Source of the DNA: Spirochaeta thermophila DSM 6192 | GTDB lineage: Bacteria; Spirochaetota; Spirochaetia; Winmispirales; Winmispiraceae | Reading direction: 5' to 3' | Length of the DNA: 64,000 nt | NCBI RefSeq assembly: GCF_000147075.1 | Contig: NC_014484.1 | Span: 2,311,501-2,375,500 of the forward strand | Part shown: piece after piece, positions 35,145-37,831 of the stretch | Position numbering within the stretch: position 1 is the first letter of the stretch | Layout: every line of letters starts with the position of its first letter | The notes under the pieces: generated by a model | Seen by the model: the letters and a program-made list of their open reading frames with translations, nothing else | Told to the model about the DNA's origin: nothing | Database searches by the model: none | Position numbers and translations under genes: made by a program

Positions 35145-35837
35145 ATGGACAAGACCATCGTCATGTCGCTCGGGGGCTCCATCGTGGCCCCTGACGGAGT
35201 GGATGCGGAGTTTCTCTCGATCTTCCGGCACCACATCACCTCCTTCCTCGAGGAACACGATGGGGTCCGACTCATCCTGGTGGTGGGAGGAGGAGGACCT
35301 GCACGACGCTATCAACAAGCCTTTCGAACGATCACCGGCTCGGACGACCACGCCCTCCTCGACTGGATAGGGATCGCCGCCACCAGGCTCAACGCAGAAC
35401 TCCTTCGAGCCCTGTTCCATCCTCTCTGCGCCGATCCTGTGGTCACGGACCCCACCGCCGAAATCCCGTTCACCGGTCGAATCCTGGTGGCTTCCGGGTG
35501 GAAACCGGGCTTCTCCACCGATTTCGACGCGGTACTCCTCGCGGAGCGTTTCGGGGCCCGGACGCTCCTCAACCTTTCCAACATCGCCATGGTCTACTCG
35601 GACGATCCCCGCACCAACCCCGACGCCACCCCCCTTCCCCGTCTCTCATGGAAGGAGTTCAGGGCCATGGTGGGTGACGAGTGGACGCCGGGGAAGAACG
35701 TGCCCTTCGATCCGGTGGCCGCACGCAAGGCCCACGAAGGGGGGCTTTCGGTGATCATCGCCGCAGGGAAGGACATCGAGAACCTCTCGGCCATCCTCGA
35801 AGGACGTCCTTTCAGGGGAACCGTGATCGAATCCTGA
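35145..35837 (+). CDS. pyrH: UMP kinase, archaeal/spirochaete type
   Basis: 230 residues, amino-acid-kinase fold. Marks are MSLGGSIVAPDGVDAEFL, LVVGGGGPARRY, DWIGIAATRLNAELL, FSTDFDAVLLAE and FDPVAARKAHEGG. These fit the archaeal-type PyrH subfamily more than the E. coli hexamer type. It phosphorylates UMP to UDP. AGAGGGAACAC precedes the ATG. Convergent 26-bp overlap with the radical SAM gene. Confidence 0.9.
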   Translation: MDKTIVMSLGGSIVAPDGVDAEFLSIFRHHITSFLEEHDGVRLILVVGGGGPARRYQQAFRTITGSDDHALLDWIGIAATRLNAELLRALFHPLCADPVVTDPTAEIPFTGRILVASGWKPGFSTDFDAVLLAERFGARTLLNLSNIAMVYSDDPRTNPDATPLPRLSWKEFRAMVGDEWTPGKNVPFDPVAARKAHEGGLSVIIAAGKDIENLSAILEGRPFRGTVIES

Positions 35838-36771: not shown

Positions 36772-36804
36772 GAGGTCTCCCTCCCTGTCCTGATTCGTCG
36801 AACG

Positions 36805-36831
36805 AAAAAAGCCAGCTGTCGAGCTGGCTTT
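36805..36831 (-). terminator. Intrinsic terminator inside the radical SAM leader
   Basis: A 10-bp stem (36808-36817 with 36822-36831; core AGCCAGCT/AGCTGGCT, loop of four) followed on the minus strand by T6. It lies between the leader promoter and the coding start, so it can only act as an attenuator or as the end of a separate small RNA. Confidence 0.85.
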
Positions 36832-36973
36832 CTCAGGGTGGCAGAGGAGCTCAACGCTCGTGACCACGCCCTCGCTTTTTCCTAATCGAAACACATTTGA
36901 AATCTCTCGTCGCACTCTGCCGCCGGCTCACCGCCGGCCTTCTCTCTTGGGTGGTGTCATCACACCCTCCCTT
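36805..36973 (-). ncRNA. Structured leader RNA / candidate riboswitch-like attenuator
   Basis: About 170 nt transcribed from a consensus promoter (36980-37008) and ending in an intrinsic terminator 33 bp before the radical SAM GTG. It contains P1 (36963-36968 with 36835-36840), a hairpin GCCGGC-5 nt-GCCGGC (36922-36938) and a helix pairing 36915-36920 with 36841-36846. On the RNA, GUUGAGCU (36848-36855) can pair over 8 bp with AGCUCGAC (36818-36825), which would break the terminator stem. I could not match it to a known riboswitch, T-box, SRP, tmRNA or RNase P core. It could also be a free-standing small RNA such as a 6S-type RNA. Confidence 0.6.
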
Positions 36974-36979
36974 ACTTCA

Positions 36980-37008
36980 AGTATAACCCTCCTCTCAGCC
37001 GCTGTCAA
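36980..37008 (-). promoter_or_regulatory. Near-consensus promoter of the leader RNA
   Basis: TTGACA (37003-37008), 17-bp spacer, TATACT (36980-36985). It is among the strongest-looking promoters in the window, with predicted start near 36973. Confidence 0.8.
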
Positions 37009-37069
37009 ACGAAACTTCATCAAGGGAAGGGATGCATCTCTTCCGGAAACATCGTATACTTTTCGTCAC

Positions 37070-37831
37070 ATGGGGCCCGCCCATCCTCTCACGATCCGAT
37101 GCTATGCCGAACTGAACGACTTCCTTCCGCCTCACCTGCGGCAGAAGGACATCCCCTATACGGCCTCCGAGGGGGAATCGGTGAAGCACATCCTGGAGGT
37201 GCTCGGCATCCCGCACGTGGAGGTGGACCTCGTCCTCCTCGACGGAGAACCGGTGGACTTCTCTGCCGTCCCCCGCTCCGGCCAACGGCTGGCGGTCTTT
37301 CCCGTGTTCGAGACGTTCGACATCTCGGGCATCTCCCCCCTCTCAGGACGTCCCCTCCGCATCCCGCGGTTCGTGCTCGACGTACACCTAGGGAAGCTCG
37401 CCCGGCTCCTCAGAATCTGCGGATTCGACAGTCTCTATGAACGGGATGCCGAAGATCTCGACATCGTACGCCGGGCCCACGAAGAGCGGAGGATCATCCT
37501 CACTCGCGACAGGGCCCTCCTCATGAGGAAGGAGGTGACACACGGCTATTGTGTTCGGTCGGATATCCCCCGCACCCAGCTGGAAGAGGTGATACGCCGC
37601 TTCCACCTTGAACGCAACGTCCAACCTTTCTCCCGCTGTCCCCTCTGCAATACCCCGCTTTCCCCCGTCCACCCCGCCGAGGCCCCCGTCACCTGTCCCT
37701 CCTGCGGAAAGACCTATTGGAAAGGGTCACACTACAGGAACCTCTTCATCCTCCTCCAGCGCCTGGACCTCGTTCCCCGCCCGGATGGACGTCCCGGAGC
37801 AGATAGTGGAGACGCGCCTTCGCATTCCTGA
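37070..37831 (+). CDS. Mut7-C RNase-domain protein with ubiquitin-like N-terminus
   Basis: 253 residues. Residues 1-85 look like the Mut7-C ubiquitin-like domain (IRCYAELNDFLPPH ... LDGEPVDFSAVPRSGQRLAVFPVF). Residues about 100-245 are the Mut7-C/PIN-like nuclease domain (RFVLDVHLGKLARLLRICGFDSLYE, ILTRDRALL). A zinc ribbon follows (CPLCN ... CPSCGKTYW). It is predicted to be a ribonuclease. The ATG at 37070 lies 9 nt after TATACT (37055-37060) without a Shine-Dalgarno, another possible leaderless gene. Confidence 0.85.
   Translation: MGPAHPLTIRCYAELNDFLPPHLRQKDIPYTASEGESVKHILEVLGIPHVEVDLVLLDGEPVDFSAVPRSGQRLAVFPVFETFDISGISPLSGRPLRIPRFVLDVHLGKLARLLRICGFDSLYERDAEDLDIVRRAHEERRIILTRDRALLMRKEVTHGYCVRSDIPRTQLEEVIRRFHLERNVQPFSRCPLCNTPLSPVHPAEAPVTCPSCGKTYWKGSHYRNLFILLQRLDLVPRPDGRPGADSGDAPSHS

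Follow-up and report, generated by a model that had tools for sequence, protein, structure and literature searches.

The window, the whole stretch of 64,000 nucleotides analysed here, comes from Spirochaeta thermophila DSM 6192, whose 2.47-Mb genome is a single contig and whose order has three species in our comparison set. Its minus strand carries a consensus promoter, TTGACA-17-TATACT, which has 11 of the 12 letters of the consensus (sites of this quality are expected 0.3 times in 3 kb), and, after about 170 nt, a strong intrinsic terminator whose hairpin of at least 10 bp runs into six U residues (36831-36805). The RNA that these would delimit folds better than dinucleotide shuffles of itself, with z scores of -3.6 with the terminator and -2.4 without it. 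A preliminary description of this DNA had proposed a riboswitch-like leader here; it had found a real transcription unit but misread its nature, and it overlooked a micro-ORF (36960-36928) near the 5' end. The features of the unit are collected in Table 1.

Table 1. Elements of the small RNA gene, with their positions in the window
Feature	Position	Strand	Basis
-35 hexamer TTGACA, own promoter of the RNA gene	37003..37008	-	TTGACA-17-TACAAT equivalent in G002
-10 hexamer TATACT	36980..36985	-	17 nt from TTGACA
Small RNA, ~170 nt	36803..36974	-	5' end inferred from -10 box, 3' end from terminator
Shine-Dalgarno GGGAGG (AGGAGG in the class consensus), doubling as 5' arm of P1	36966..36971	-	sequence; pairs counted in homologs
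P1, Shine-Dalgarno arm paired with Pro-Pro codons (...CACCACCC)	36949..36971	-	covariation
Micro-ORF ATG ACA CCA CCC AAG AGA GAA GGC CGG CGG TGA (MTPPKREGRR*)	36928..36960	-	Pro-Pro frame in homologs
P2 hairpin GCCGGC GGUGA GCCGGC, stop codon in loop	36922..36938	-	probability and homologs
AAGCGAGG, corresponding to the AAGUGAG box of many homologs	36870..36877	-	consensus line
3' hairpin region P3/P4 (AGGG..UGG/CCACCCU, GAGC/GCUC inside)	36834..36871	-	G002 alignment and fold
Intrinsic terminator AAAGCCAGCU CGAC AGCUGGCUUU + UUU	36805..36831	-	fold and covariation

Several neighbouring genes are worth recording. The divergent gene (window 37070-37831, plus strand) encodes a protein that combines a Mut7-C RNase domain with a ubiquitin-like Ub-Mut7C domain at its N terminus, and an archaeal-type UMP kinase, here in a bacterium, is encoded at window 35145-35837 on the plus strand (TIGR02076 above cutoff). 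In both Winmispiraceae genera a gene for a small coiled-coil-like protein follows a TPR gene; its copies are L006:1368-1535 on the plus strand, which has no Pfam match, and an ORF of ~63 codons near window 37.85 kb on the minus strand.

Relatives of the RNA in the Spirochaetia

The RNA is 98% identical in a congener (G001) and is recognisable in another genus (G002). A covariance model built from the three Winmispiraceae copies (R1) retrieved full-length homologs from across the class, in 32 of 395 genomes at E<=0.1 with a best new match of 8.5e-11, and a second model (R2), retrained with 19 sequences, extended the set. After curation, in which loci were kept for recognisable anatomy, the covariance-model searches yielded this RNA in 71 genomes that represent about 20 families of the class Spirochaetia; it is single copy in most genomes. 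The weak matches L089, L090 and L095 were dropped because they have neither a Shine-Dalgarno sequence nor a Pro ORF.

In the R3 search of the phylum, the best matches outside the class (E ~1e-5 to 1e-3) were ordinary gene-end terminators lacking a micro-ORF. As these are chance terminators, matches with E above ~1e-5 are mostly noise and the family looks restricted to Spirochaetia. Used as an exact DNA pattern, a 24-base conserved Winmispiraceae stretch gave no matches in the genome and viral collections. A motif pattern run against named genome contigs gave 11 matches, five of them chance occurrences in other phyla and six the RNA itself, as confirmed by covariance model. All six true matches, Candidatus Thalassospirochaeta sargassi among them, come from records titled Spirochaetia, Spirochaetes, Spirochaetales or Thalassospirochaeta.

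When 110 nt upstream of each locus were scanned with a spacer of 16-18 nt, a sigma70-like promoter agreeing with the consensus in at least 9 of its 12 letters was present at 53 of 69 loci, against 8.4 expected from shuffles; at 10 letters or more the count was 33 of 69, against 1.6. The genes around the RNA change from lineage to lineage. Upstream lies uvrC in 16 loci (recognised by its GIY-YIG domain), a second family, read as serC on the strength of its sequence, in 15, and other genes elsewhere. The downstream gene varies in family and strand across the class; a crude longest-ORF rule puts it on the opposite strand at 38 of the 69 loci, and in G002 just 2-3 nt separate the end of the terminator from the stop codon of a UMP kinase gene in convergent orientation. 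Together, the promoters, a covarying terminator and the changing neighbours point to an independent transcription unit. The other reading offered in the preliminary description, a stand-alone small RNA, thus appears to be the right one, with a predicted promoter and terminator of its own and no dependence on neighbouring genes.

In several lineages (L017-L022, L031, L032, L122-L148), the promoter is farther upstream and there is a separate conserved 5' leader element, 40-80 nt upstream of the micro-ORF, consisting of GAGGUAA plus a hairpin or, in the Treponema-like set, of GAUGAGGAC.

The micro-ORF and the conserved structure

In the homologs that were kept, a Shine-Dalgarno sequence is followed 4-9 nt downstream by a start codon, opening a micro-ORF of about 8 to 33 codons that begins M-x(0-5)-Pro(-Pro). 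In all 67 homologs having a CCNCC motif, the motif shares the reading frame of the start codon and reads Pro-Pro; the remaining four of the 71 have a single early in-frame proline. The spacing from start to Pro-Pro is 3, 6, 9, 12, 15 or 18 nt. Since four families (f22, f26, f28 and f31) each contain several of these spacings, at least 8 or 9 independent indels would have occurred, every one a multiple of three; we estimate the chance of all of them keeping frame at ~(1/3)^8 or less, assuming that the families are monophyletic. A covariance model is blind to reading frame, so frame conservation does not depend on the way in which the homologs were collected, with the caveat that the models were trained on copies carrying the CCNCC motif. 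This constancy of frame across variable spacings indicates that the micro-ORF is almost certainly translated. By this comparative evidence, the RNA would share with dual-function small RNAs the possession of a translated ORF, here for a peptide smaller than gene finders usually call.

A pattern search that left codon 2 free revealed a lineage of the Treponema-like family f24 whose peptide is MQ[FYLI]PTKR, in 24 of 245 genomes, and the reversed pattern found none; codon 2 is Gln, written CAA or CAG, in all 26 of the copies whose proline is preceded by two codons. This lineage has one proline, not two. Beyond Pro-Pro, the peptides diverge between families in both sequence and length (8-33 residues), and a common arginine four codons past Pro-Pro sits in P2 (GCCGG), where it could reflect a constraint on the RNA. 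The peptides are hydrophilic by inspection and, at 8-33 residues, do not resemble the hydrophobic membrane peptides of ~20-60 residues that define type I toxin mRNAs.

The conserved structure consists of P1, P2, a 3' hairpin region and the terminator, and it differs from the helices first proposed. In the homologs it is the RNA that is conserved and not those helices: the 12 pairs of the closing helices of the suggested multi-helix core can all be drawn in the window's letters, but only 6 survive in G002. The GCCGGC hairpin, P2, is present as described and very stable, with a pair probability of 0.99. Across 65 homologs, 97.6% of P2 cells are paired, with double changes in five of the six pairs, and the micro-ORF extends into or through this hairpin. 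For P1, P2 and the terminator together, 92.1% of cells are paired in the same 65 homologs, double-change cells number 129 versus 40 in shuffles, and sliding the pairing partners collapses the covariation score. Because the alignment was fitted to the structure and related sequences inflate double-change counts, this covariation is support, not proof. The core CC:GG pairs of P1 vary little since the Shine-Dalgarno sequence and Pro-Pro both constrain them; the flanking pairs, unlike the core, do vary. In the window's copy, other pairings compete with P1, whose inner pairs have a probability of only ~0.34 and whose outer pairs have one of 0.03.

The 3' half shows a frequent AAGUGAG box followed in several families by a hairpin, with poor sequence conservation and no common alignment. 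Within P3/P4, the change of GAGC/GCUC to GAGA/UCUC is compensatory. An anti-Shine-Dalgarno seed, CUCCU, found in the window and G002, was rejected because other families do not keep it. Five loci (L071, L072, L074, L081 and L084) have an extra common stretch around GGAGGCGCCTATAGA, 3' of P2.

Candidate functions of the RNA

A covariance search against Rfam (release 15) at gathering and permissive thresholds matched no family, in agreement with the preliminary description, which recognised no known aptamer; scans of the window and the homologous loci gave chance matches only, such as RNAI on the terminator. The size of the RNA had also suggested a kinship with 6S RNA, and its length, own promoter, wide distribution and mostly single-copy state would suit a divergent housekeeping RNA, whether 6S RNA, SRP RNA or tmRNA. 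We regard this as extremely unlikely. Neither the window nor the homologs have an Rfam match even at permissive thresholds, and RF00013 (6S) has none in genomes G000-G002 at E<=10 or at the homologous loci, whereas the same search was positive in 8 of 14 controls. Further, the window's RNA and its homologs fold into several hairpins and not into the one long hairpin with a central bubble of 6S RNA, and they have a Shine-Dalgarno sequence and a probably translated ORF; to our knowledge, 6S RNA has no conserved translated ORF.

That the RNA is a cis-acting leader, governing the radical SAM gene through a terminator and an antiterminator, is also very improbable. In the window's genus the gene does lie ~35 nt past the terminator on the same strand, as it would behind a riboswitch or attenuator, and no separate promoter was found for it, so that read-through may drive it. 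However, riboswitches and attenuators precede a conserved regulated gene, while G002 keeps promoter, RNA and terminator and lacks the radical SAM gene genome-wide, and the genes downstream vary across the class. The terminator is kept and the mutually exclusive antiterminator is not: all 8 of its pairs exist in the window's letters, but only 3 of 8 in G002, and forcing it costs 11 kcal/mol (-59.5 versus -70.5).

The early prolines could alternatively make the RNA a ribosome-pausing sensor of EF-P activity or prolyl-tRNA, like mgtL/mgtP, with the paused ribosome refolding the RNA downstream. Adjacent prolines can lead to peptidyl-tRNA drop-off, which EF-P relieves (PMC8934632), and Salmonella mgtP is an EF-P-responsive leader ORF (PMC5021804); the spirochaete RNA resembles mgtL/mgtP in being a structured RNA whose short ORF has consecutive proline codons early, as 67 homologs do. 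Against this, the residues reported to strengthen stalls after diprolyl, Trp, Asp, Asn and Gly (PMC4176338), follow Pro-Pro in only 6 of 67 cases, Lys, Val, Tyr and Glu being dominant, and the f24 lineage has a single proline. Unlike mgtL/mgtP, the RNA ends at its terminator with no regulated gene on the same transcript: neighbours vary, and in G002 the next gene is convergent. We therefore think such a sensor improbable. It is less easily dismissed, though still rather unlikely, that the RNA is a miniature mRNA whose micropeptide is the functional product, with P1, P2 and the terminator setting only translation and stability. The start codon and Pro-Pro frame are kept, as is MQ[FYLI]PTKR with its synonymous second codon in one lineage, but the peptides vary between families in length and sequence, apart from the proline near the start and an arginine that could be imposed by P2.

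The explanation that we favour, as probable on comparative grounds, is a stand-alone small RNA gene belonging to a new class-wide spirochaete family, both miniature messenger and structured RNA, and dual-function or translation-gated. Points against it are that P1 is weakly predicted in the window's copy with CC:GG pairs that vary little, and that the 3' half is too poorly conserved for its alignment to yield a common fold or seed. Small RNAs with a short ORF are a known kind, represented by SgrS, RNAIII and VcdRP (PMC4021124, PMC8672173). Like SgrS/SgrT, RNAIII/delta-haemolysin and VcdRP, the spirochaete RNA would be a stand-alone promoter-to-terminator RNA with a short translated ORF. It differs in that its ORF is much shorter, unrelated in sequence and starts Met-(few)-Pro-Pro, its Pro-Pro codons double as the Shine-Dalgarno partner, it is conserved over a whole class, and base-pairing in trans is only putative. 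We found no Spirochaetia RNA of such a kind described in the open literature searched. Candidate RNAs near uvrC appear in a 2021 microbiome survey (PMC8040213); two are specific to Prevotella and four come from other organisms. As far as searched, in Rfam 15 and open papers and leaving aside those near-uvrC candidates, what is new is the family itself, its distribution over the whole class and the use of the Pro-Pro codons for two purposes.

How such an RNA might work can be sketched. As long as the RNA is free, its Pro-Pro codons (CCNCCN) would pair with the Shine-Dalgarno sequence and so damp initiation, which would then compete with P1. A ribosome that binds and translates the first codons would melt P1 and reach P2, the site of the stop codon in many members, so that translation would toggle the 5' half between a ribosome-occupied and a folded state. 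The 3' half, with the AAGUGAG box, P3 and the terminator hairpin, is likely the business end and may act in trans on other RNAs or on a protein, which would make the molecule a dual-function or translation-gated small RNA. More tentatively, we suggest that the Pro-Pro codons serve as the anti-Shine-Dalgarno arm of their own hairpin and that translation, by starting, determines how the small RNA folds and thereby its activity in trans. If so, the RNA would be a class-wide spirochaete regulator switched by the onset of micro-ORF translation.

Its presence in about 20 families of one class, usually with a good sigma70-like promoter, suggests that the RNA is probably abundant and important there. 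As a defined candidate regulator, it can be tested in spirochaetes that grow in culture, among them Treponema-like lineages with MQ[FYLI]PTKR, and the overlap of Pro-Pro codons with Shine-Dalgarno pairing is a specific design that mutations can check. Some Treponema-like genomes apparently carry two or three copies of the gene; in G669 (L130, L146 and L148), where one of three pattern matches lies at a contig end, part of this may be assembly duplication, and the other cases are G672 (L134 and L147) and G303 (contigs C6 and C124).
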